A stretch of 36,181 nt of DNA from a virus, in the IMG/VR virus record IMGVR_UViG_3300032286_000030, positions 1 through 36,181 of that record. One strand, 5' to 3'. Both the position numbers and the translations under genes were made by a program. The stretch's first letter is position 1. Each line of letters starts with the position of its first letter. Positions 11,651-33,972 of the stretch are shown piece by piece. A model generated the notes under the pieces. The model saw nothing but the letters and a program-made list of their open reading frames with translations. It was not told the DNA's origin and searched no databases.

Positions 11651-11849
11651 CACTCCGTTTGACGAACCTACATGGGTTTTCCCCTACGCTGGTATGGGCG
11701 TGGGGGATAGTTTTTTCCTACCAACAATGAAACCTGCATATATGTCTTATATCATCGACACTACAGCAAAAAAGGCTGGTGTTGTAATGAAGGTGTTTAC
11801 AACAACCGAGAAGGACGTTCTCGGTGTTCGTGCGTGGCGTATAAGTTAA
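11625..11849 (+). CDS. Small conserved phage protein (74 aa)
   Basis: The protein starts at ATG 11625, overlaps the primase end by 26 bases and ends in TAA at 11847-11849. The sequence has a Pro-rich start (MSKKPSPSDTPFDEPTW), GVGDSFFLP and a final VLGVRAWRIS. I recall the G-D-S-F-F-x-P and G-V-R-x-W-R pattern from short phage proteins located after primase genes, none with an established role. Size and basic character would suit a small DNA-binding or inhibitor protein, but this is a guess. The final bases overlap the end of the opposing giant gene, and its coding region contains a long inverted repeat (11805-11825). Confidence 0.72.
   Translation: MSKKPSPSDTPFDEPTWVFPYAGMGVGDSFFLPTMKPAYMSYIIDTTAKKAGVVMKVFTTTEKDVLGVRAWRIS
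11805..11825 (-). terminator. Candidate terminator of the late (- strand) operon
   Basis: ACCGAGAA at 11805-11812 is a perfect inverted repeat with TTCTCGGT at 11818-11825, with a five-base loop. In the - strand transcript it lies 20 bases past the stop codon of the giant late gene and is followed by TGTTGT, a weak U-rich tract. It is inside the coding region of the opposing + gene. A role in ending late transcription, or in both directions, is inferred from position. Confidence 0.45.
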
Positions 11850-14800
11850 GGCTTGATACCCATCTCCGCAAACATATCTAGTAGTTGACGTTTGACGATG
11901 TTTGACATGCCATTTATTTCTTCTAACTGGAGTTTGCGTTCACGGGGGGTCAACTCATCGCTAGATCTGATTTGATTAGCAGCCGCACGTAACTGTCTTA
12001 ACTGACCGTTGACTTGCTGGTTGTAGAACTGAACCGCAACATACTCGTCTTGGTGTGAGTCTAAGTAATTACTTAACAACTCTGGCTTGTCCTTCAGCGC
12101 GTTGATACGTTTATCAAATCCTTTGATCTGCTCTTCAACTTTGCTAAATTCGCGGGCATCTATGTTGGACTTAGTGCCGATGAAACTACCAATAAACGGT
12201 ATATCGTTCTTTGGATCAAAACCTTTTTGACCTGCTACTGTTAGTCCAAGGTTAGTAACTGCCGTAGCCATCTTTGCCGCGCCATCAGCATAGTTATTAG
12301 CGAAGAAGTACATGGTGTTTGGACTCCAGTCAACTCCACCATCAGTTGCTTTGAACAGCATACGAGCCGCCATCTTATAGGCTTCAGGGATGTTGTCGCC
12401 GCCTGTGTATGCATCACCGAAGCGTGTCTGACGATTGTTGTAAATCTCACGACCTAAACCATCCATATTCATCACGTATTCGAAGAACGGGCGGAACGCA
12501 GATGGAGTTACTGAGTCCATAGCCCATGCTGGGAAATTTTCTATCGGGCTAATACGTGAGAATGGTAACGGCAAGAATGAGTCCATGCCAACAGTCATGA
12601 TGTTGGAGAATGCTTCAGCAATAGACACACGCCCTGTGGATAGGGCCGCAATCTGAGAGCCAGCAGATGCGAAAGCACCTGGCCCGAAGCCCCAAGGTAT
12701 TTGGATTGGGTTCTCAATTCCTGGGATGAAGAATCTAGCGTAGCGAGTCCAACGCGCCATGTCATCTGTAGCGATACGGTTGCGACCTTGGTCATCATCA
12801 CCAGCCATCATCAGAGCCATCATGTAGAACGCTACACCAATGCCAGCCATAGTAGCCATCATGCGACGTGCAGCATACTGACGCTCATTCATAATCTCGA
12901 CAGCTTGATCAATCTGCGCTTTAGTGCGACCTTCAGCTTCAGCTTCTTTGCGGAACTGTTCTTCATTAAAACTAAATGCGGGAGCCAGCGCCTCGATAGC
13001 ACGGACAGCACCAGTAGCGGCAGGACGGAAGAACATGAATAGCGCACCAGCTTGCTTACCCCAACGACCGATCTGCTCAAAGTTGGCGAGGTTCTTGGCA
13101 TACTCAACGGCACGAATCCTTGCGTCTTCTTTTGCCTCTGCTGGATCCATCTTGTTTTTCAAGTTCTGGTTGTAGTACTCATCCTTGATCAATCTATAGG
13201 CCGCTACACGGCTAGACAATTCAAACATGTCGTTATAGATATCAATGAACTTGTCTACTTGGTCTTTCTTCTTAAGAATGCCAGACCGCCCAACTTCTTT
13301 AATAAGTTCATCTAGCGCGCCTCTAGCGGCAACGCCTTGCAGATAAGAAACGCGACCGCCCATCTCGACGTAATCAGACAAATCACGGTAGTAACGCTGC
13401 TGTTCGTCTAGGCTTTCGTATGGTTTGCCGTTACCTGCTAAACGGTTAATGTCATCAAACTTACCATCAGCATATAGTCTTGAATAATTCAGCGCTCTAG
13501 CAAGACCGTTGTTGGCAACATCAGATGCCATACCGCTAAGTAACTTACCGCCTGTTACAGGGTCAAACTCAGCGCCAATGATTCCAGCGTTAGTGAATGA
13601 ATCTCGCACAAAGTTCATTGGTGCGAAAGCAGGGTTGTAGCGAGTGTGTGTCTGACCGATACCGCTGGTGATCTGATCGACCATGTTAATCAGAGGATTG
13701 GTTGTCTTTGTACTGCGCTTGATGGCTTCAGCCATATCTTTGCCAGTAATACTCCACACATCAATTGTGCCATCAGGTTTGTACAAGAAGATTTTGTTTG
13801 GACCTGTAATGTCTTGTCTAGTTGTACGACCAGCATAACGATCAGAAAACTTAATCGTGGTAACAGGTTCACCCTTTATGATTCCAGACTTGATTGCGTT
13901 GACGATAGTTTCAGGCAATATCTTGCGACCAGCATTGAGTGCGGCAGAAGCGCCGTCAGCAAGTGACTGAAGGATTGGGTTCTCAGATTCAGATATACGA
14001 CCCTTGAATGGGTCTTGTAGTTTTGTGAACTCGCCACCTAAACGCTTACCGTCAAAATTAAACTCTTCGTCAATCGTACGGTTCTCAGGTCTGCCTTTGA
14101 ACGGTACATAGTCTTTGAACCCGTAGAAGTCTACGAAGTTGGCAACAGGCTCAGACCAATAGTTGGCTTCTTTGTTGAGCTTGATTGTTTTCTTATTTAG
14201 ATCACGTAGCGCTTGAGATACGGCATCGATCTCTGCCTTGTATTCTGGTCGGTCTAGCGTATCACGGAATGCCTGTATCTCTTGTGGTGAGCGACCAGCA
14301 ATCACGTTGTATCTTTCATTAGACTCATTAAAATACGCCGCCTCTACAAGCTTGCCATTCTTAATCTTTAGATGAGACTTAGGGTCAGCTACTACGGTCT
14401 CAAGCATCTGACGTAGTTTTTGTGCGCGGGCAGTGCGTTGCTCGTCAGTCAAACCGGGTGTTGGCTCTGTCAATGTATCTATGATGTTTTGACGGATAGT
14501 AGCGGCGGCATAGTACTCGTTACCTATCTTGTAAGTTGGGTTGTCATCCAACGGCACATTCAACAGATACTTGACGTGGCGACGCTCTGGCTCATGGCGA
14601 GCCTGCATTATCAGATGCAGTTTAGATAACGCTTCCTTCACAGGAATGCCAAGTTTTGTTGCATAGGCTTCTACCGCTTTGTCTACAGCAACACTCTCTG
14701 AGCGCACTTCGGTGTTGTACTTATGTACGGCTATACCAATAGAACGGCTGAAAGCGTTGTAGACGTCATTAGCGTTTTCACCTACAGCAGTCACAAGACC

Positions 14801-17800
14801 AAACATGCGGGCACGGTCAAACAATACCTTTAGTGGGTAGCGGTCATTCTGGAAGAACTCAACTGCGGACTGAAAACCATTTTTGGTAAACAAGTTCTTA
14901 AAGAATGCTTTAGGTGTGCGATCTTTAAGTCCTACGTTTTTCTCAGCTTCTGCTGTCATTTGTTCAGCAGACTGCTGACCTGGTGTGGTGGCCTGAACAG
15001 TTTTAGCAGCGCCTTTAGATGGCAGTGTTTCTCCAAAGCCTTCTTTGCCAGCAAGATTAGTGATACCACCTTCAGGCGCAGCAAGAATATCTTCCGTAGC
15101 CATAAACAATTCCATCAGAGCATTGCCCCGATATCCTGGCTCGGTGTTACGGATGCGATCTAGATTAGTTACTCCAGCCTTGCGGAATAATTGGCTTGTT
15201 ATATCTTTAGGTTTACCCTCACCGCCTTTTGTTATAGCGGCTTCTTTAGCTAGTTCTTCAGGGTTATCGTATAACGCTTCTTGATCAAACGCCGCTTTTT
15301 CAGCAGGTGTTAATTCGCCGCGTGATTCTTTTTCCACCAACTCCATAGCGGCGTCAATTCTTTCTTGTTCAGAAAGTTCTTCGTCTTTTTGTTTTTTAGT
15401 TTTGCGCGGCGCATCGTAACCTTTAGCCTCTGAAAACTCAGTTGGCGTTTTTTGCGCCATTGAACCTAAACGCGCTGGAGTTAGCCCAAGTTTTGTTATG
15501 CCAATCCCAGCAGCAATCTTGTTGATTTCATCAAACAGTTGATAGACGCCAACAACCCTCTTGATGCCTCTTCTTTTTTCAACACCTGTTGGGTTGCGCG
15601 TTGCTTCAGATACAACAACTAATCGTTTGTTGTATTTGTCTATAAGTTGTTTAGCTTGTCTTACAGCACTAGAGTCTTCTGTTAATGCAGTGTTAGTGCT
15701 TGCCGAATTCCTGCCAACAAAAGACATTGCCGCTGGGTTAATTACTTCAGCTTTAATTCTTTCAATCGCATCTGCAAGAATTTTTTTGTTAGCGCCGTCG
15801 CGTACTTGAGTCTCCCACGCTTCTCGCTCTCTCATATCTTGTATAGCGGCTGCGTCATCTTTAGAGTTTTCTGAAGCTACTAAGTATTTAGTAACTTTTG
15901 CGTTAGGACGGAACAACTGATACAGATGTGCAATAGCGCCAACAAACTGACCCCATAAAGTGTCAAACAAGTTTTCATACCCACGCAAGGCTCGTTCACG
16001 GCGCTTGACCAACTCAGGGTCTTGCTCCGCAGTCTTGTCTGTGTATTTAGTAAGGCTAGGTTTTTGTATCTTATGGAGTTCGTTTTGGAACTCCAGATCG
16101 GTCATGGCGTAGGCCACAAACTCATACAAGTTATCAAATGCATTCTTGTACTTATCAGAAGTGATGACTGACTTAGCTACAGAAGCAATATCTTCCAGAT
16201 GCTTAATAGCTTCGCGTTGGTTTTTTGTTAGCGAGTCTGGATCAGAATAGTATTTATGGATAAGCCTGACAGTTGCAGCGTGCGTAAGTTCGTGCAGTAG
16301 CGTTGCTTCATCAAGCCCAAATGGACCAAGAATTACAGTGTTTGTTCTGTAGTTGTATTCGCCTATCGTGTTGAAGACAAGTTTTGGATCAAACGCAACG
16401 TTGACTTTGAAGTCTTTTACGTCTAACAGTTTTTCAGCAAGGTTTTTGAAGACCAATGAAGAGAACACTTTGTTAGCCATCAAAGCTTGCTGCTGCGGCG
16501 TGTTCTCACTGATCTGTCTTTTCTCAACCGTGAACGAGTCGCCGTATCTATCAGCATAGGCTTCAAAGTCACCCAGACTCAATACGTTGCCAATTTTGAA
16601 TGGCACTTCATCTTTTATGTCGTCAGCAATCTCGGTGACTGTGTAGCCGTAGCGCACACGTCCAAACTTGGACTTGCCAATCTTTATACCTTTAGCTTCG
16701 TTTCTAAGATACTCTAGGGCAGCCTTGACATCACCGCGACGCAACTTAACAAGAATACCTAGCGGCAACAAACTGCCTTTACCTGCTGGCTGATTCTTGC
16801 GCTCTTGTTGCGCTTGGCGATACATCTGTCCTATGGCTATTGCTTCCGCATCAGTAGCGGCATCTTTAGCTTTCTCGCCTTTGGCTTCTAGTTCTACTTG
16901 TTCTTTGACAAGGTTCAATGCCAAAGACTGCTCTAAAACAGTATCGTTTACGTTTGCTGAACCAAATAGATTCTTACTGGCTCTAGATAAACTTTCCCAA
17001 GGGGGCAACGTGCCAATAGATGGGAACAGTTTGCGCTGGTCTTCATAGCGTACCCCCATAGCAGCATCAGCTTTTACTAATGTCTGTACGGCTTCTTTGT
17101 CCTGACCAAGTTGTGTAGCTTGTCTACCGACTGCTTCTGATTCAGAACGCTTCTTCTCTAAATGCGCACCAACTTTTTGAATTGCTTTAGCTATAGCTTC
17201 TTTGCGTTCTTCTGGAAACGGTAAAGATATACGGGACTTTATGTCTGTATTGAGTGGCGCTACATCAGGCCCAGTTATGTTGCTAAGAAATATTCTTACA
17301 GCATCTGGGTTTTCTCTTAGAAGATCATTAAATTTAGGCGTTACTGTGCCAGCAGCTTTGGCTTTAAACTTTGCGTTGTGTTCAGCAGCCGCCGCTTCAT
17401 AAGCATTTACAACTGCAGGGGATATACGGTTCTTTAAAGAATCTAACTCAGCAAGAGAACTTTCAATCGCTGCTATTAAAGACTCTTCGTCTTCATATTT
17501 AGATGCATCTACTTCCGCATCAGCCGCTAGTTCAAGCAGTTCAGGATCAAACCCTTCGCCTTTGGACGGGAGTTTGTCTTGTTTCTTTTTCTTTAATTCT
17601 TCTAGTCTGTTACGTAAATCAAACTTTTTAACTGGCGCTTTTTGTTTAGCCTCAGTAAAGTCAGGTACGTCTTGCTCCGCTTCTCCAGCCGCTAGTAAAT
17701 CATCTACTGTGCGATTTATTGGAGCGGGCTGTGCATCTTCTCGTTCATCAACCCGTGTAAGAGCTTCTCCATCACGAACCACTCTTCCGGGTTCAATTGC

Positions 17801-19339
17801 TTGAGGTCCTCCGGCGGGGGGAACGTTTGTACTGGCTGCGCCAGATATGCCAGCGCTTTCTCCACCTGCTCCACTGATAGACTGCTTAACATCTTCTGCT
17901 CCTGTTGTAGGCGCTTGGGCAAGCGCGGTGCGTGCTGCATCTATTTCAGCCTTTAATTTTTCATTTTTTGCTATACGAGCTTTTAGAGTGCCTGCTTCTT
18001 CTTGAGTTAAAGAAGGCTTACTCTGCGCGTCAGCAATGTTCTTTGCGCGTGTATCGTAATCTGCTTGCTTTGCATCAATCTCAGGAGTAGTTACCGCAGG
18101 CGGAGCCGCAGGCATAACAAACCCTTCTGGAAGGGCTTCTAGTGTTTCATTGCCAGTAAAGGCCATACCCTTACCGCCGGGTGGTAGCAGTGTCTCGGGC
18201 GCAGTTTCATCTGTTATCTCTCCGCCGGGTGGAACTTCCTGTTGTGTTTGTTGTGTTTGTGTCTCTGTAGAAGGTGGTGCTGTTGGGCCCTTACCGAACG
18301 CTACATCAGTAGCCGCAGTTATACCTGCGCCACCAAAGCCACCTTTTAGACCTGCATTGATAAAGCGCTCAAAGTTCTTCTCAGAGAAAAACTGCTGGTT
18401 GTTATCAACAAACTTTTCAGCCGCAGCAGACGATACTTCTTGTAGTGCCTCAGTGCCGCCTTCAGAGATAAAACCTTGGACTGCGCCTTTGCCTGCACGC
18501 TTGTACCACGCGGCTGCAACTTCTTCTGGGCTAACTCCAGCCTTAGACATCTTGCGTAACAAGGCGATAGGAGTGATTGCATCTAGTGCAGAGTTAAACG
18601 CACCAAATGCTAGAGCCGCGCCAAGGTCTTGCTTACCTGTTGCCTCATAAATGTTTTGGTAAACGTCAGGGACGTTCTGTGCCGCAGAGCCAGCCAACGC
18701 ACCAGCGGTTTGATACTTCAACCCAATCTTTTGCGCTTCTTTTATACCAGCATCTAATGCTTGTTTTTTAATGGCTTCAAGAGTAGCGGCTTGGATTGGC
18801 CCTGCTTCCATAGCCTTTACAACCCCGCGACTTGCCACTTGTTCTGCGGCCTGCATAGCAGCAGCCTGTGCGCCACGACCTGCTACGCCAGCTAGTCCAC
18901 CAGTAAGAACGCTTGGCAATATGGACGGCAACGCTTCGCCAATAGACTCTTTAACGTAGGTTAGCGCTTTGCCAACACTATCAATATCTTTGTATGACGC
19001 AACTTCTGCGGGGTAAAGTCTTTCAGTTTCTTTCTGGTACGCAGCGGCCTCTTCCATTTGCCGTCTTGCGTAGTCTTCAGCGCCAAATGCTTTACCAAGC
19101 ATGGCTGGGGCAACGTCACCTAATAAAGAAGAAATGCCGCGACCACCGCGTATGACGGATGGAATGAAGCCAGTTTCTCCCTTTTGTTCTATGGGAGCAG
19201 CGACAGGAGCCTCTGGCTCCATACCGCCCATGTTTAGATACTGATCTAAAAAGAACGATGCTTCTTTCGTGCTTAATCCGGGCGGGCCATCAAAGCGATA
19301 TGCCTTACCGTCAGCACCCCTTGCGCGGTATGTCGCCAT
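11846..19339 (-). CDS. Giant polyvalent virion protein with metallopeptidase motif and LPD38-like region
   Basis: The protein has 2497 residues, with GGAT upstream of the ATG. The N-terminus (MATYRARGADGKAYRFDGPP) is followed by Ala/Gly-rich, partly hydrophobic helices (about 100-350), then long charged and Pro/Thr-rich linkers. A zinc metallopeptidase motif, LLHELTHA, has His1016, Glu1017 and His1020; a likely third ligand is Glu1073 in NLYEFVAYAM. This matches the MPTase-type domain of phage polyvalent proteins. The last third, from TRYNPAFAPMNFVRDSFTNA onward, resembles LPD38 (PF18857) and contains a hydrophobic segment (MATMAGIGVAFYMMALMMAG). Such proteins are packaged and enter the cell with the DNA. 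It is the last gene of the late block. Virion location is inferred. Confidence 0.82.
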   Translation of the reverse strand: MATYRARGADGKAYRFDGPPGLSTKEASFFLDQYLNMGGMEPEAPVAAPIEQKGETGFIPSVIRGGRGISSLLGDVAPAMLGKAFGAEDYARRQMEEAAAYQKETERLYPAEVASYKDIDSVGKALTYVKESIGEALPSILPSVLTGGLAGVAGRGAQAAAMQAAEQVASRGVVKAMEAGPIQAATLEAIKKQALDAGIKEAQKIGLKYQTAGALAGSAAQNVPDVYQNIYEATGKQDLGAALAFGAFNSALDAITPIALLRKMSKAGVSPEEVAAAWYKRAGKGAVQGFISEGGTEALQEVSSAAAEKFVDNNQQFFSEKNFERFINAGLKGGFGGAGITAATDVAFGKGPTAPPSTETQTQQTQQEVPPGGEITDETAPETLLPPGGKGMAFTGNETLEALPEGFVMPAAPPAVTTPEIDAKQADYDTRAKNIADAQSKPSLTQEEAGTLKARIAKNEKLKAEIDAARTALAQAPTTGAEDVKQSISGAGGESAGISGAASTNVPPAGGPQAIEPGRVVRDGEALTRVDEREDAQPAPINRTVDDLLAAGEAEQDVPDFTEAKQKAPVKKFDLRNRLEELKKKKQDKLPSKGEGFDPELLELAADAEVDASKYEDEESLIAAIESSLAELDSLKNRISPAVVNAYEAAAAEHNAKFKAKAAGTVTPKFNDLLRENPDAVRIFLSNITGPDVAPLNTDIKSRISLPFPEERKEAIAKAIQKVGAHLEKKRSESEAVGRQATQLGQDKEAVQTLVKADAAMGVRYEDQRKLFPSIGTLPPWESLSRASKNLFGSANVNDTVLEQSLALNLVKEQVELEAKGEKAKDAATDAEAIAIGQMYRQAQQERKNQPAGKGSLLPLGILVKLRRGDVKAALEYLRNEAKGIKIGKSKFGRVRYGYTVTEIADDIKDEVPFKIGNVLSLGDFEAYADRYGDSFTVEKRQISENTPQQQALMANKVFSSLVFKNLAEKLLDVKDFKVNVAFDPKLVFNTIGEYNYRTNTVILGPFGLDEATLLHELTHAATVRLIHKYYSDPDSLTKNQREAIKHLEDIASVAKSVITSDKYKNAFDNLYEFVAYAMTDLEFQNELHKIQKPSLTKYTDKTAEQDPELVKRRERALRGYENLFDTLWGQFVGAIAHLYQLFRPNAKVTKYLVASENSKDDAAAIQDMREREAWETQVRDGANKKILADAIERIKAEVINPAAMSFVGRNSASTNTALTEDSSAVRQAKQLIDKYNKRLVVVSEATRNPTGVEKRRGIKRVVGVYQLFDEINKIAAGIGITKLGLTPARLGSMAQKTPTEFSEAKGYDAPRKTKKQKDEELSEQERIDAAMELVEKESRGELTPAEKAAFDQEALYDNPEELAKEAAITKGGEGKPKDITSQLFRKAGVTNLDRIRNTEPGYRGNALMELFMATEDILAAPEGGITNLAGKEGFGETLPSKGAAKTVQATTPGQQSAEQMTAEAEKNVGLKDRTPKAFFKNLFTKNGFQSAVEFFQNDRYPLKVLFDRARMFGLVTAVGENANDVYNAFSRSIGIAVHKYNTEVRSESVAVDKAVEAYATKLGIPVKEALSKLHLIMQARHEPERRHVKYLLNVPLDDNPTYKIGNEYYAAATIRQNIIDTLTEPTPGLTDEQRTARAQKLRQMLETVVADPKSHLKIKNGKLVEAAYFNESNERYNVIAGRSPQEIQAFRDTLDRPEYKAEIDAVSQALRDLNKKTIKLNKEANYWSEPVANFVDFYGFKDYVPFKGRPENRTIDEEFNFDGKRLGGEFTKLQDPFKGRISESENPILQSLADGASAALNAGRKILPETIVNAIKSGIIKGEPVTTIKFSDRYAGRTTRQDITGPNKIFLYKPDGTIDVWSITGKDMAEAIKRSTKTTNPLINMVDQITSGIGQTHTRYNPAFAPMNFVRDSFTNAGIIGAEFDPVTGGKLLSGMASDVANNGLARALNYSRLYADGKFDDINRLAGNGKPYESLDEQQRYYRDLSDYVEMGGRVSYLQGVAARGALDELIKEVGRSGILKKKDQVDKFIDIYNDMFELSSRVAAYRLIKDEYYNQNLKNKMDPAEAKEDARIRAVEYAKNLANFEQIGRWGKQAGALFMFFRPAATGAVRAIEALAPAFSFNEEQFRKEAEAEGRTKAQIDQAVEIMNERQYAARRMMATMAGIGVAFYMMALMMAGDDDQGRNRIATDDMARWTRYARFFIPGIENPIQIPWGFGPGAFASAGSQIAALSTGRVSIAEAFSNIMTVGMDSFLPLPFSRISPIENFPAWAMDSVTPSAFRPFFEYVMNMDGLGREIYNNRQTRFGDAYTGGDNIPEAYKMAARMLFKATDGGVDWSPNTMYFFANNYADGAAKMATAVTNLGLTVAGQKGFDPKNDIPFIGSFIGTKSNIDAREFSKVEEQIKGFDKRINALKDKPELLSNYLDSHQDEYVAVQFYNQQVNGQLRQLRAAANQIRSSDELTPRERKLQLEEINGMSNIVKRQLLDMFAEMGIKP

Positions 19340-28191: not shown

Positions 28192-28758
28192 TCAGAATGT
28201 CCTTGGCCCGTTAATCCAGCACACAGCCGAATAGCGTTTGCCAGAGGTTACGGGGGTAACTTGATGGCGTACAAAAGAAGGGAACGCAAGAACAGTCCCA
28301 CGTTTCATTTCTATAGTCTCGCCTCCAATAAATTGAAACTCACCGCCTTCAAACTCGGAGGGGTCAGAAAGCAGTGCAACTATGCTTACCTTACGAACTA
28401 TAGGCGAGGTATCAAACGGTGCCCAATCCTCATGCCACCCGTAAAACCCATCTTTATCGTAAGCAGTTAACTGTACTTGTTCTGGTCGCCCAAGTTGGTA
28501 GTCCCAACCAGCTTCTTGGCTTGCGTACAACCCATAATTATACAAAATACCTTCAATCCAATGACTAAATGGAGCCCAGCAAACAGAAGAATTTCGTATT
28601 TTTGTGTCTACCTCCGCATTATCATTTACAACTTCCGCTTTTTTCTCTTGGATTGTGGCTCTTTCTTTTAAAAGTAGGTCACATAATTCAGAAGACAGTC
28701 CATTTTCCCATCTCCAAAAGGCGGATAAGGTACTAAGTTTTGCTGCATCATTTACCAT
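28192..28758 (-). CDS. 2OG-Fe(II) oxygenase (PKHD-type hydroxylase)
   Basis: The protein has 188 residues, with GGAG six bases upstream of the ATG. The double-stranded beta-helix core carries the iron triad: YGWHEDW (His109, Asp111) and FVRHQVTPV (His165). SGKRYSAVCW gives Arg175 for 2-oxoglutarate. FEGGEFQF and KRGTVLAFPS are standard strands of PKHD/prolyl-hydroxylase-like enzymes (2OG-FeII_Oxy_3/4). Such enzymes use O2 and 2-oxoglutarate to hydroxylate a protein side chain, nucleic acid base or small molecule. They are common in marine phages, mostly with unknown substrates. It overlaps the second oxygenase gene by 11 bases. The substrate is unknown. Confidence 0.9.
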   Translation of the reverse strand: MVNDAAKLSTLSAFWRWENGLSSELCDLLLKERATIQEKKAEVVNDNAEVDTKIRNSSVCWAPFSHWIEGILYNYGLYASQEAGWDYQLGRPEQVQLTAYDKDGFYGWHEDWAPFDTSPIVRKVSIVALLSDPSEFEGGEFQFIGGETIEMKRGTVLAFPSFVRHQVTPVTSGKRYSAVCWINGPRTF

Positions 28759-29323
28759 TTGGTTCTCCTGTTTTTATTTTTCCTGATTCCCAATCTTCTA
28801 CTGGTACGTGTGCGCCAAACATCCAAAGCACGCGAGAGGTCTTACCACTAACAGTAGATACAGAGTGTGGGATTTCCGAAACAAGGTAGCAGTGCAACTC
28901 ACCCATTTCTATATCAACACGCTGCCCATCAAGATAAAGCTCGCCACCAGAATCCGCTTTACGGGTCATAACATTACAACGCAGTGTTGCAAAACCACCA
29001 TAAGACCGTGGGTCTTGATGAGTATAAACATCACCTCCAGGAAATGTACAGGAAACAACTACACCATCTCTACCATGTCCTTCAATTAAATCGTAAGAAT
29101 TTACACCACAAAAAGAACGAATACGATTAGATATATCCAAAACAACTTGGGGGTATTCATATCTGTTGCTATATAACCGAGAGGTTACTCGCTTTGTATA
29201 TCCAATACCCTCTGTAGAAATACTAACATCCAACCATTTTTTTTCAACGCCTTCATCTACCCACGCATTTAACGCGGAACATTCTTTGGGCGACAAAAAG
29301 TTTTTATGGCGCTCAATACGCAT
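28748..29323 (-). CDS. Second, divergent 2OG-Fe(II) oxygenase
   Basis: The protein has 191 residues. ATG 29321-29323 overlaps the stop of the cupin gene (TAATG); a TTG at 29330-29332 in frame is less likely. The iron-binding triad is VYTHQDPRSY (His102, Asp104) and SEIPHSVSTV (His153), with SRVLW giving Arg164 for 2-oxoglutarate. SGGELYLDGQ and MGELHCYLV are matching strands. The N-terminal half (NFLSPKECSALNAWVDEGVE) resembles the cap region of prolyl 4-hydroxylase-like proteins. Only the scaffold is shared with the neighbouring oxygenase, so this is not a recent duplication. The substrate is unknown. Coupling to the cupin and the other oxygenase suggests a joint pathway. Confidence 0.87.
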   Translation of the reverse strand: MRIERHKNFLSPKECSALNAWVDEGVEKKWLDVSISTEGIGYTKRVTSRLYSNRYEYPQVVLDISNRIRSFCGVNSYDLIEGHGRDGVVVSCTFPGGDVYTHQDPRSYGGFATLRCNVMTRKADSGGELYLDGQRVDIEMGELHCYLVSEIPHSVSTVSGKTSRVLWMFGAHVPVEDWESGKIKTGEPNGK

Positions 29324-29682
29324 TAGTCCCAATCCCTAGTCAGAGGTTCGAAAGGTGGGGTAACGCCGTCTGGTATAGACGCGGGGTCAAGAATATCGCC
29401 ACTACCGTCTTCGTTACGCAAAGCGTGGATACAGTGGGCAATAGTGTCGTCTTCTAATGCGGTTAACTCATGCACAACATCAGCTTTGATATAGATATGT
29501 GCTGGTGCAGTAAAGTCGGTATCTTTACCTAAAGCGTTTATACGCAACTTGCCCTTACTTAGAAGAGTCAGATGATCATGGCAATGTGCATGCCCGTATT
29601 CTTTGTCGCCTGCTTTACGAAACAACATTTGCTTTATAAAGACATTTTTTACGCACGAAATGTATGGGATTACGTCTGACAT
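29323..29682 (-). CDS. Small cupin protein
   Basis: The protein has 119 residues and starts at ATG 29680-29682, preceded by AGGATAAAA. An extension to 29733 is possible but has no ribosome site. It has a cupin motif 1-like segment, EYGHAHCHDHLTLLSKGKLR (His31, His33, His35, His37), and a motif 2-like IKADVVHELTALED (His71), consistent with a small metal-binding beta barrel. Single-domain cupins may be isomerases, oxygenases or sugar/signal-binding proteins; here the C-terminal 30 residues (DPASIPDGVTPPFEPLTRDW) are extended and Pro-rich. It is coupled to the oxygenase downstream. The reaction is not recognised. Confidence 0.8.
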   Translation of the reverse strand: MSDVIPYISCVKNVFIKQMLFRKAGDKEYGHAHCHDHLTLLSKGKLRINALGKDTDFTAPAHIYIKADVVHELTALEDDTIAHCIHALRNEDGSGDILDPASIPDGVTPPFEPLTRDWD

Positions 29683-29684
29683 TT

Positions 29685-30086
29685 TTATCCTATAAAAGTT
29701 GTTTCTGGAAATGGCACTATCGCAGGAGACCACTTACTAAAACGGTAATTCCAATAATAGTAAACTCCATCAGTCGGATAAGGTATAGGCGGAATCCAGT
29801 TACATGTTGGCTCATCCCAAACAAAATTGTCCACTGGTTTAGGGTCAGCAAACCCACCATACTCACCACATTCAGGGTGGAAAGTACCGCCAATATCAGC
29901 ATATCTAAATCTAAAATTATTGTTGTAGGACGTTTGTTTCCATGTAGCTGCGGGTAGAAAGCTGTTTAAAAACGTTATACCCACAGCTTCGCTTTGCGGA
30001 AACGGTAAATTTTGAATATCGTCATTATTAACAACATGTACTTCTAAAACAACATTGTTTTCATCTAGTTTTGCAAAGTGTGCCAT
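29685..30086 (-). CDS. Conserved phage protein of the fibre region (cyanophage-type MAHFA family)
   Basis: The protein has 133 residues. ATG 30084-30086 (MAHFAKLDENNVVLEVHVVN) has GGAG seven bases upstream and is preferred over an in-frame ATG at 30096-30098 inside that site. The sequence contains GITFLNSFLPAATWKQTSYN, NNFRFRYADIGGTF, VWDEPTCNWIPPIPYPTDG and a Trp-rich end. I recognise this order (MAHFA-DENN, WKQTSYN, YPTDG) from proteins of marine T4-like and podovirus-like phages, located by tail fibre genes. The repeated aromatic/Pro motifs suggest an assembly factor or a small fibre or decoration protein. The function is not established. Confidence 0.7.
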   Translation of the reverse strand: MAHFAKLDENNVVLEVHVVNNDDIQNLPFPQSEAVGITFLNSFLPAATWKQTSYNNNFRFRYADIGGTFHPECGEYGGFADPKPVDNFVWDEPTCNWIPPIPYPTDGVYYYWNYRFSKWSPAIVPFPETTFIG

Positions 30087-30097
30087 TGATTTCTCCA

Positions 30098-31033
30098 TTA
30101 AACAGTAAACACGCCATCACCAGTAAACGTGTTGTAGTAGTACGTACCATCATTTGAAACCGACCCACCAGATTTAGCTCCTGCGCCTATGGGGTATCTA
30201 ATAATCACAACACCACCTCCGCCACTACCTCCAGCTATAGGTTGGTTAATATTGGGAATGCCGCCGCCGCCACCTCCATAACCACCAGTACCTGGTGTAC
30301 CATTGTTGACACCATTTGCACTTGGTCCGCCACCACCTGCACCACCAGCTGCATTAGGCCTATTGTATGTGCCTGCGCCAGCACCACCACCAGCTCGGGT
30401 AGTGCCTGTTACGCCATCATTAGCACCGCTGCCGCCGGGACTTCCATCAGAACCACCATTTCCTGCGCCTGGAGCACCTGCACCGCCACCGCCACCGCCA
30501 GAACTGCCAGATTTTCCTCCATAACCAGTACCACCAGGATTACCTTGACCTCCAGTGCCGGAGCCGGCAGGTGCAACACCGTCCCAACTGCCACCGCCGC
30601 CGCCAGAGCCACCAGAAAGTCCAGGTTGCGAACCTGGGCCTTGACAGTCGCCACCGCCACCGCCACCTGTTGTAGATATGCCGTTAAAAGATGAACCGCT
30701 TCCAGGCCCACCACGTTGAGCACGGCGTCCGGCACCGCCACCACCAACTGTTACAGGATATGAACCCGCAGTAAGAGAAGCTGTGGATGTTCTCAAGCCG
30801 CCTGCACCGCCGCCGCCAGTATTTGCAGCGCCTCCTCCACCTGCAACAACAACAAAAGTTATAGATAAGGCGTTTGACTTCCCGTAGAAATTTGACAGCG
30901 CAATCGTGCCTGACGGAACACCCGCCAAAGTTCTATACGAAGACTGGTTAATGTTCGCGGTTGTAGTACCGGGAGTGTTAAGTTCTACGTTAATTGCATT
31001 GAAGGATATTGGACCGGATGCTGGTAATGTCAT
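30098..31033 (-). CDS. Glycine-rich tail fibre tip/adhesin
   Basis: The protein has 311 residues and follows GAGG. The N-terminus (MTLPASGPISFNAINVELNT) and SSYRTLAGVPSGTIALSNFY, then GKS form a conserved attachment domain of about 55 residues found in many phage fibre proteins. From about residue 60 to 275 the protein is dominated by Gly runs with Ala, Ser, Thr, Pro and Asn (VVVAGGGGAANTGGGGAGG style), closing with GGVVIIRYPIG and a short DGTYYYNTFTGDGVFTV end. Gly-rich blocks resemble the polyglycine-II receptor-binding tips known from T4-like gp38 adhesins. It probably contacts the host receptor. The Gly-rich DNA is low complexity and prone to expansion or contraction. Confidence 0.78.
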   Translation of the reverse strand: MTLPASGPISFNAINVELNTPGTTTANINQSSYRTLAGVPSGTIALSNFYGKSNALSITFVVVAGGGGAANTGGGGAGGLRTSTASLTAGSYPVTVGGGGAGRRAQRGGPGSGSSFNGISTTGGGGGGDCQGPGSQPGLSGGSGGGGGSWDGVAPAGSGTGGQGNPGGTGYGGKSGSSGGGGGGAGAPGAGNGGSDGSPGGSGANDGVTGTTRAGGGAGAGTYNRPNAAGGAGGGGPSANGVNNGTPGTGGYGGGGGGIPNINQPIAGGSGGGGVVIIRYPIGAGAKSGGSVSNDGTYYYNTFTGDGVFTV

Positions 31034-31042
31034 ATCAACCTC

Positions 31043-31780
31043 TTATGGTGTGCCATACGCAGTAATATTAGCAAGGGTAATTAAGTTACCCGACGAATCT
31101 AATGACGCTACATTTGTACCGTTGTAGTTGAAATACAGTTTTGTCCCGCTTGGGGTTACGTTCCAACCACCTGAATTGGTGATGTTCGTTGCGTTTGTGG
31201 CGTTTGTTGCATTTGTGGCGTTTGTTACGGTAGTTGAGCCTATAACAGCAACAACTTGTGCCCCTGTTGCCGCAGTGAAATTACTTGTCCCGTTGCCGTA
31301 GGCCAAACCAGTAAGAGTAGTTACCCCCGACCCTCCGTTATCCACAGTTAAGGGTGTGCTTAAAGCCAAACTACCTAAATAGTTAACCGCGCCAATAACG
31401 TCAGTGCCGTTACACACCATCAAATACTTTGCTCCCGCTGGTACAGATAGCCCTGTCTGACCACTAACTAAAACTCGGACTGCACCGGCAGTATTGTTGT
31501 ATATGAAATAGAGTTTTTTGTTGGCTGGGACAACCAACTGCGTGTTAGTGCCGCCTGTACCAGTCAACTCAATAAACATGTTGCGGGCTGTAGCAGAAGC
31601 CCCCTGAGACATGGTTAGCGTGGTAGTTGCGCCAGTAGAAACCGCTTGGGTCACGTACCCGGAAATAGCCTGCTCTAGTAACGTGCCAATGTTGAGGTTG
31701 TTGGTTGCGCCCCAGTTACCGGCTTGGTCACCAGTGCCGATAAGCTCTAAGGCTAAATTGGTTGAGTATGTTGCTGACAT
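31043..31780 (-). CDS. Tail fibre/appendage protein
   Basis: The protein has 245 residues, with AAAGG upstream of its ATG. The N-terminus (MSATYSTNLALELIGTGDQA, GNWGATNNLNIGTLLEQAIS) is a recognisable fibre-attachment module of marine and freshwater phages. The middle is beta-rich, with a module similar to a collar or carbohydrate-binding barrel (NKKLYFIYNNTAGAVRVLVS). A GGSG shaft repeat follows, then a run of Asn-Ala-Thr triplets (about 188-200). It ends with NYNGTNVASLDSSGNLITLA. No enzyme motif is present. A role in host binding is inferred from composition and neighbours. Confidence 0.72.
   Translation of the reverse strand: MSATYSTNLALELIGTGDQAGNWGATNNLNIGTLLEQAISGYVTQAVSTGATTTLTMSQGASATARNMFIELTGTGGTNTQLVVPANKKLYFIYNNTAGAVRVLVSGQTGLSVPAGAKYLMVCNGTDVIGAVNYLGSLALSTPLTVDNGGSGVTTLTGLAYGNGTSNFTAATGAQVVAVIGSTTVTNATNATNATNATNITNSGGWNVTPSGTKLYFNYNGTNVASLDSSGNLITLANITAYGTP
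31188..31223 (-). repeat. Tandem 9-base repeat coding for Asn-Ala-Thr triplets
   Basis: Four near-identical 9-base units (GTTGCGTTT, GTGGCGTTT, GTTGCATTT, GTGGCGTTT on the + strand) lie back to back inside the fibre gene and give Asn-Ala-Thr triplets. The unit is a multiple of three, so copy-number changes would keep the frame. Confidence 0.75.
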
Positions 31781-32388: not shown

Positions 32389-33972
32389 TTACCCTTTCAG
32401 CTTGGCTTCAAGCTCGATGATTCGGTCTTCTAAAGCCTTAACAGATTCAAGTAACAACGGCACCAAACGCTCGTATCGAACAGTGAGGTATTTGTCGTCA
32501 ATAGGGGCTGGAGCCACGGCTTCTGGCTGTACAGCTTGTACAGACTGAGCACTCAAGCCAACCTCAATCACACTTGCGTCATAGCCCAACTCAACCGCAG
32601 TCTCATTGGCATGGTAGAGCATTGTCTCAATCTGACGCACTTTACCTAACGGATCAGTAATGTCACCAACCTTAGTTTTCAAACGAATGTCAGAGTAGTA
32701 GGCAGTAATGTTGTTGGTCGCACGGATTTCACCAGCCGTACCCGAACCAGCCGTACCAACACCAAGCGAATTAAACTGGACGTTAGAACCTGTAGCAACA
32801 GCCTGACCAATACTGATAGTTACCGCGCCGGTAGCGCCTGATACAGTAACACCTGTACCAGCTACGTTGGATGTAACGCCTGTGTTGTTAATACTTAAAG
32901 TACCAGAACCTGTTGTAGTGCTAATACCAGTACCAGCACCAAGAGAAGCTACTGAGTAGTTTGTCCCGTTACCAATTAAAAGTTGTCCGTTGGTTGGGGT
33001 TGTAGTTGTACCAGTGCCGCCAGCCGCCACAGGCAAAGTACCAGCCACAAGAGCAGAAGCGGAAGTGGAATACAGGGCATTGTTAGCCGCAGCGAATGTT
33101 GTCAGCCCCGTGCCACCGTAGCCTGTTGCGATTGTTGTACCGTTCCAAACTGCATCGGAAATAGCAGCGTTATTAAAAGTTGCGGTAGAGTTATTAAAAT
33201 TGTACGAGCCGGGCAGGAAAGAATAGATACCAAACGTACCCGCAGAAGTTGAAATGTTTGTTGCGCCCAACTGGACAGCGCCACCAGAAGGAATGGTGTC
33301 AACCGTTGCGCTAGCGTTGTTTGTAATTGTTAAAACACCAGACGAATTATTTACAAATAGGAAACTTTGTCCAAGCTGCAATGTTGTAGCGTCGGGCATT
33401 TGAAAGGTGTGGGTAGTAGACCCTACCAATATTTGGTTTCTTGCTGAGGCTACGGTTAGGACTGTTGTGCCGCCCGAAGCTGTTGTTGCAGCAAATCCCG
33501 CTACGTAGTTGTTAAAAACAATATTTTGGTTTGCATCGCGCAATACTACAGAACTTGCGCCAGTAGATGCGGTTACACCCGTGCCACCATAAGCAACAGG
33601 GATAGTAGAACCGTTCCAAGTGCCAGATGTAATCGTACCCAACGCACTGACGTTACCAGACGCGTCTTCGTATACCGCTCTTGATGAGGGGTAAGTACAG
33701 AAAACATTAACGGTGCCACTAAAAGTAACCGCGCTTCCAGAGTTACTAGAAGCGTAGACAGTTGTGCGCGTAAGCGTAGGCCCCGTAGATGAATACGTGC
33801 CTAGTCCTGATTCCCAATTACCAACAGCGTCGGTAGCGGCATAGTACGTCGTATTGGTATTGCCAATAGCCGTAAAGTCCTGATACCCCGCTACGGTGCC
33901 AGATAGGGTAAAGCTAACTGTGGTGTTAGCCGTACCCGCTTGTTGAACGCGGTCTGCGAGAACGAGAGCCAT
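32389..33972 (-). CDS. Tail fibre/spike with S74 intramolecular chaperone (self-cleaving)
   Basis: The protein has 527 residues, with AAGGAG before its ATG. The N-terminus (MALVLADRVQQAGTANTTVS) is a recurrent phage fibre start. The middle has shaft repeats such as YGGTGVTAS, GYGGTGLTTFA and AAGGTGTTT. The last 115 residues form a Peptidase_S74 chaperone: AYYSDIRLKTKVGDI holds the predicted catalytic Ser427 with Asp428 and Lys432 close by, then GLSAQSVQAVQPEAV and a C-terminal coiled coil (LLLESVKALEDRIIELEAKL). This domain trimerises the fibre and then cuts itself off. The mature fibre probably ends just before Ser427. Cleavage is inferred from the intact motif. Confidence 0.88.
   Translation of the reverse strand: MALVLADRVQQAGTANTTVSFTLSGTVAGYQDFTAIGNTNTTYYAATDAVGNWESGLGTYSSTGPTLTRTTVYASSNSGSAVTFSGTVNVFCTYPSSRAVYEDASGNVSALGTITSGTWNGSTIPVAYGGTGVTASTGASSVVLRDANQNIVFNNYVAGFAATTASGGTTVLTVASARNQILVGSTTHTFQMPDATTLQLGQSFLFVNNSSGVLTITNNASATVDTIPSGGAVQLGATNISTSAGTFGIYSFLPGSYNFNNSTATFNNAAISDAVWNGTTIATGYGGTGLTTFAAANNALYSTSASALVAGTLPVAAGGTGTTTTPTNGQLLIGNGTNYSVASLGAGTGISTTTGSGTLSINNTGVTSNVAGTGVTVSGATGAVTISIGQAVATGSNVQFNSLGVGTAGSGTAGEIRATNNITAYYSDIRLKTKVGDITDPLGKVRQIETMLYHANETAVELGYDASVIEVGLSAQSVQAVQPEAVAPAPIDDKYLTVRYERLVPLLLESVKALEDRIIELEAKLKG

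Follow-up and report, generated by a model that had tools for sequence, protein, structure and literature searches.

The locus analyzed here raises the question whether three coupled genes lying between the fiber and lysis genes of a phage act as one unit, and on which substrate. The window, a stretch of 36,181 nucleotides from a phage of aquatic type (IMG/VR record IMGVR_UViG_3300032286_000030), encodes a cupin and two 2OG-Fe(II) oxygenases, OxB and OxA (Table 1). As the original prediction had stated, the genes are coupled, with the cupin and OxB genes sharing one base in a TAATG junction and those for OxB and OxA overlapping by 11 nt (28748-28758), and both oxygenases retain intact motifs (H109-E-D111, H165 and R175 in OxA; H102-Q-D104, H153 and R164 in OxB). 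An alternative upstream TTG start would give an OxB of 194 aa. The position between fiber and lysis genes was likewise borne out: the order upstream is fiber genes, a Gly-rich protein (PF21722), a small protein with a C-terminal tag and the cupin, and the run is followed by a holin (PF11351) and an M15 endolysin (PF08291). The small gene comes directly after the Gly-rich gene, as it does in many relatives. Near-syntenic relatives of the run in IMG/VR show 66-95% protein identity, so that the gene run is not a product of chance. Elsewhere in the window, a 2497-aa ORF (11846-19339, - strand) matches both a family of virion structural proteins and phrog_2206, a virion RNA polymerase (E 3e-19).

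Table 1. Features of the window around the cupin gene.
Feature	Coordinates	Strand	Remarks
Cupin Ia	29323..29682	-	119 aa, ATG start; metal ligands H31, H33, H37, H71
OxB, 2OG-Fe(II) oxygenase, PHD2/P4H-like fold	28748..29323	-	191 aa (ATG)
OxA, 2OG-Fe(II) oxygenase, optional accessory	28192..28758	-	188 aa; phrog_61, PF13640
Small protein, phrog_7759 body plus C-terminal tag, proposed cupin partner	29685..30098	-	
C-terminal tag FPETTFIG of the small protein	29688..29711	-	Ia-like, 97th percentile of background
Gly-rich adhesin-like protein	30098..31033	-	PF21722, phrog_2295
Fiber-like protein	31043..31780	-	phrog_31104; weak phrog_12796 (tail fiber)
Tail-fiber protein	32389..33972	-	phrog_5668

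To survey the neighborhoods of these genes, IMG/VR was searched using the individual proteins as well as alignments, and bacterial genomes were scanned too, which gave 263 loci; each scan covered the best 80 relatives, upstream ORFs were picked by script, and the phage evidence is nearly all metagenomic. Among the loci listed, 57 of 66 unique OxB proteins have a cupin within 2.5 kb; at the level of ORFs, again among the loci listed, cupin I lies within 300 nt of OxB in 61/78 cases and cupin II in 0/78. OxA is mostly found alone, with neither cupin nor OxB nearby for 56 of the 64 unique proteins among the loci listed and one of the two nearby for only eight. The 63 unique cupins among the loci listed divide into 15 near OxB, 8 near OxA only and 40 near neither oxygenase. 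These counts therefore indicate that OxB depends on the cupin, that OxA is a common accessory and that the cupin is the core. Thus, the three-gene set is not a conserved unit, and a single module of cupin, OxB and OxA, as originally proposed, is ruled out by the survey; the linkage to fibers and the late, virion-related context stood, and a late virion substrate is still plausible. Other enzymes occupy the same place, namely a sulfotransferase (PF03567, E 4e-8; L017 5185-5895, in the slot after OxB of a related phage), a further 2OG oxygenase (L001) and a DUF6065 protein (L011).

OxA matches PF13640 (E 2e-15) and phrog_61 (E 2e-39) and is about 31-37% identical to enzymes of cyanophages and other marine phages. 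OxB has no significant Pfam or PHROG match, nor did a sequence search of solved structures return a meaningful one. In an alignment of 43 OxB sequences R164 is invariant and H102, D104 and H153 are conserved at 90% or more, and the AlphaFold2 model built from these sequences (pLDDT 94.2, pTM 0.90) is a double-stranded beta-helix. The closest folds are PHD2 and the algal and bacterial prolyl 4-hydroxylases (P4Hs), at Z about 15, with AlkB nearly level; by fold similarity, OxB would be prolyl 4-hydroxylase-like. Both proteins thus have the HxD...H triad, the Arg and the helix fold of the 2OG-Fe(II) superfamily, the fold of OxA being assigned via PF13640.

The window cupin is without a significant Pfam or PHROG match, including to any cupin family, and among solved structures a sequence search recovered a distant KdgF. 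Its AlphaFold2 model, weaker than that of OxB (pLDDT 77.5), is a small beta-barrel like those of KdgF and TM1459, and superposes on KdgF with Z 13.2 and rmsd 1.8 over 87 residues (model mc5d357b061f9). H31, H33, H37 and H71 are invariant in the family (A1), and A3 and A5 show the same pattern. With an HxH motif and later His ligands on a modeled barrel, homology and modeling together support a cupin fold with conserved metal ligands. A second type, cupin II, scores 15.4 bits against Cupin_2 (PF07883), below the gathering cut-off of 27.2. The two unannotated families are large (>500 IMG/VR matches each) and nearly absent from the phage-genome collection: annotated phage genomes hold no cupin Ia or Ib and a single cupin II, in an unannotated gap of MW202879.1 (L264 4001-4267), where the preceding protein is also tagged (QPITTGSQTL). 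Relatives of cupin I were found in bacterial genomes of Quisquiliibacterium (L261), an uncultured member of the Burkholderiales (L262) and Limnohabitans (L263), possibly as prophages, which hint at hosts.

The most constrained feature of the locus, missed by the original prediction, is the tag at the C-terminus of the protein whose gene directly precedes that of the cupin. The family of this upstream ORF varies freely, whereas its last residues are constant. Upstream ORFs cluster into 22 groups, and in a few of these the ORF is not a small protein but OxB or a further cupin. The bodies are largely unrelated, yet the tails follow the cupin subtype: [IL]PV[TS]x[LVI] for Ia, IGVxRV for Ib and QPxxxG[AS]QTL for II. 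When each body family was left out of training in turn, Ia tails were recognized with an AUC of 0.90 (55/96 above the 95% background line, 5 expected). The unchanged matrix, for which the background is 5%, placed 24 of 30 tails from new loci above that line among the loci listed (binomial p 3e-26). For Ib the tail [ILV]xVxR[VILA] was predicted in advance; a fresh scan, among the loci listed, gave the full motif in 49/63 tails and an ending in R-[VILAFM] in 55/63, against a full-motif background of 4/1449 (0.3%). Cupin II itself came to light through homologs lacking an Ia tail, some of which end in GAQTL, with this second unannotated cupin type directly after most of them. In a scan of the best 80 of 534 IMG/VR relatives, 68 of 70 unique upstream tails among the loci listed end in GxQxL when homolog-supported ORFs are taken (63/70 with the upstream ORF chosen by the first script), compared with 13 of 1449 other C-termini (1%) and none of 96 upstream of cupin I.

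Scored for Ia, Ib and II tags among the loci listed, the partners of cupin Ib gave 2/57/1 with 1 uncalled and those of cupin II 0/0/70 with 2 uncalled; those of cupin Ia gave 70/0/0 with 20 of 90 uncalled, where the Ia calls are loose, with 30% of the background passing the pattern, and the matrix results were used instead. The table is nearly diagonal. Five body families occur with both cupin I and cupin II, and in them the tail fits the cupin in 64/64 and 53/53 cases. The best tree of the largest of these families has ten changes of cupin type and ten of tag, of which the well-supported branches retain just two independent switch pairs, both agreeing. Body homologs without a cupin have no tag, and none of the six phrog_7759 proteins in phage records is tagged. 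Tag II does occur on proteins without a neighboring cupin, in phages with one cupin II elsewhere (L266, L278, L159, L281), which suggests action in trans. No natural fusion of a tagged protein and a cupin was found. Some phages (L012, L004, L159) carry several tandem units of a fiber or adhesin, a tagged small protein and a cupin, with differing tags and cupin types.

Several tagged bodies match tail-fiber or tail-fiber-assembly families (phrog_4912, phrog_1795 and PF16778, E 2e-22), and one is shared by Pbunavirus, Aeromonas and Vibrio phages, where it bears the label "tail fiber" or "tail fiber assembly" protein; most have no functional annotation. The PF16778 domain is absent from the small protein of the window and present in relatives such as L134 and in some cupin-adjacent proteins. 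The phrog_7759 body of the window may be a chaperone, and in every family the small tagged protein would be a fiber chaperone or a tip protein. That the tag replaces the assembly-chaperone (APC) domain was suggested by P14 gp44, which has the same body with PF16778 and no tag. Ten proteins with this domain away from cupins all end at it, and in about 13 of 21 cupin-adjacent proteins with an APC domain the tag follows the domain, which makes it an add-on and not a strict replacement. Homologs of the small protein of the window also lie among or beside 2OG oxygenases in S-SSM5 and DSL-LC04; the phrog_7759 gene of S-SSM5 (L434 1352-5381), without cupin or tag, sits inside a run of oxygenase-like genes that includes 2OG oxygenases, PF05721 proteins and leprecan-like genes.

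On sequence evidence, then, the conserved unit is a small protein of tail-fiber-assembly type with a C-terminal tag, together with the four-His cupin encoded directly after it, in a pairing of tag and subtype that is specific. We consider it probable, at about 0.6, that the cognate cupin docks, in some form, on a fiber-helper complex through the tag. A subtype-specific tag would recruit the cupin to the small protein, and hence to the fiber tip being assembled. Joined by OxB and in some cases by OxA or further enzymes, the cupin might mature or oxidatively modify that tip. In the window, the protein ending in FPETTFIG would pair with the adjacent cupin, and OxB and OxA would serve as accessory oxygenases, acting most probably on the fiber tip or the tagged protein.

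It is conceivable, as a minority view in our estimate, that the cupin is itself a tag-directed enzyme which, together with OxB in cupin I phages, oxidizes or hydroxylates the fiber tip or the tagged protein; this overlaps with docking, and the two estimates do not add. The histidines of the metal site do not vary between cupin subtypes that otherwise share little identity, the linkage of OxB is confined to cupin I, and the OxB fold is closest to prolyl hydroxylases of proteins and peptides. In the cultured cyanophage S-SCSM1 (MK867354.2, L351 3319-5933), moreover, four tandem 2OG-Fe(II) oxygenase genes, one of them OxB-like (27%), stand directly before two tail-fiber genes. However, the 40 of 63 cupins without an oxygenase neighbor favor an assembly partner, AlkB-type oxygenases of nucleic acids score nearly level with the P4Hs for OxB, and no residue common to all tags offers an obvious target. 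Hydroxylation of a virion protein, one of the possibilities first proposed, may occur. The tag as a Pro/Thr hydroxylation site was rejected, as neither residue is conserved across tags, and because Pro is not conserved, hydroxylation of Pro in the tag itself is unlikely as a general rule.

We regard it as improbable that the oxygenases act on DNA, nucleotides or a host surface sugar, their place beside the fibers being incidental to a late operon and phage mosaicism. The fold matches of OxB include AlkB-like proteins, a review places cyanophage oxygenases beside uvsX/uvsY and suggests that they act in repair (PMC2984593), and OxA comes from a broad family that also occurs without a cupin nearby. 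On the other hand, OxB is tightly linked to a cupin whose partner is a protein of fiber-assembly type, and oxygenases adjoin fiber genes in unrelated phages.

Since the tags adjoin the cupin genes, some of their conservation could be explained if the cupin gene hitch-hikes together with the last part of the gene before it. For tag II, the codons show 1.1-1.9 bits at third positions versus mostly <0.7 at first and second positions, and because the third positions are nearly free, this tag appears to be selected as protein; a signal at the DNA level only is rejected for it, and not fully for Ib. The final R-V of tag Ib (CGT GTC TGA) overlaps the GTG-TCT start of the cupin, and the codons for G-V or E-V in this tag are similar to a Shine-Dalgarno sequence, so that only the I-x-V part counts as independent evidence. 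That the tags are merely the ribosome-binding site and start region of the cupin, moved by cupin recombination and incidentally translated upstream, is very unlikely: cupins do overlap or abut the upstream stop, tag Ib does read GGA-GTN...CGT-GTC-TGA (Shine-Dalgarno plus GTG start) and the last two codons of the window tag (I-G) do form the Shine-Dalgarno-like AGGA of its cupin, but the conserved Pro codons of tag Ia are CCN, and tag II is ten residues long, is kept at the 23 of 67 loci without a Shine-Dalgarno-like motif and is present where no cupin follows.

Docking of the cupin through the tag is the most likely reading. Open papers, the literature covered here, contained no earlier description of a cupin at tail-fiber genes, and the matching of tags and cupins across hundreds of related phages suggests that phage fiber tips have a docking or modification system not described before. 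The bacteria that a phage can infect are decided by these tips, and it has long been asked how their variable parts are exchanged and put together. If tags and cupins form a matched code, it would account for the continued recognition of swapped, unrelated fiber-helper domains by the same machinery, and the two large families without annotation would gain a function. Aquatic phages commonly encode 2OG oxygenases; we know of no established substrate for these phage enzymes, and the fiber tip would be a concrete place to seek one. More doubtful is a full orthogonal code, in which interchangeable fiber-helper proteins bear one of at least three tags and each tag is read by its own metal cupin, the cupin acting in trans on all proteins so tagged and, with 2OG oxygenases, oxidatively maturing the receptor-binding tip; if true, it would amount to tag-directed post-translational modification of the virion.

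The ssrA tag and SspB form an adaptor-tag system. Like these, the phage tag and cupin combine a short C-terminal peptide with a matched small partner protein, but in a different fold and context, and with a docking that is putative. The four-His monocupins TM1459 and KdgF share the fold of the phage cupin (Z 12-13, rmsd 1.8-2.1) and its HxHxxxH...H ligand pattern, at only about 11-22% identity in fold alignments; in contrast to the partner proposed here, neither has a known peptide-tag partner. OxB has motifs and fold in common with P4Hs (PHD2, vCPH, P. putida P4H), and differs from known P4Hs and cyanophage oxygenases in lying outside Pfam and PHROG families and in its linkage to cupin I, whereas OxA is an ordinary member of the phrog_61 2OG-Fe(II) oxygenases of cyanophages. 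The closest parallel to the tagged proteins lies in the tail-fiber assembly chaperones, for which no cupin partner was found in open papers. In Pam3 gp25, which was undetected in virions, a variable N-domain grips TNF-like and Gly-rich fiber parts and a conserved C-domain trimerises (PMC9608196). Similar to Tfa of Mu, Pam3 gp25 (7YPX) and the PF16778 chaperones, the tagged proteins are encoded by a small gene right after the fiber and have a variable N-terminal body; unlike them, most have no C-terminal assembly domain and end instead in a subtype-specific tag, followed by a separate cupin.
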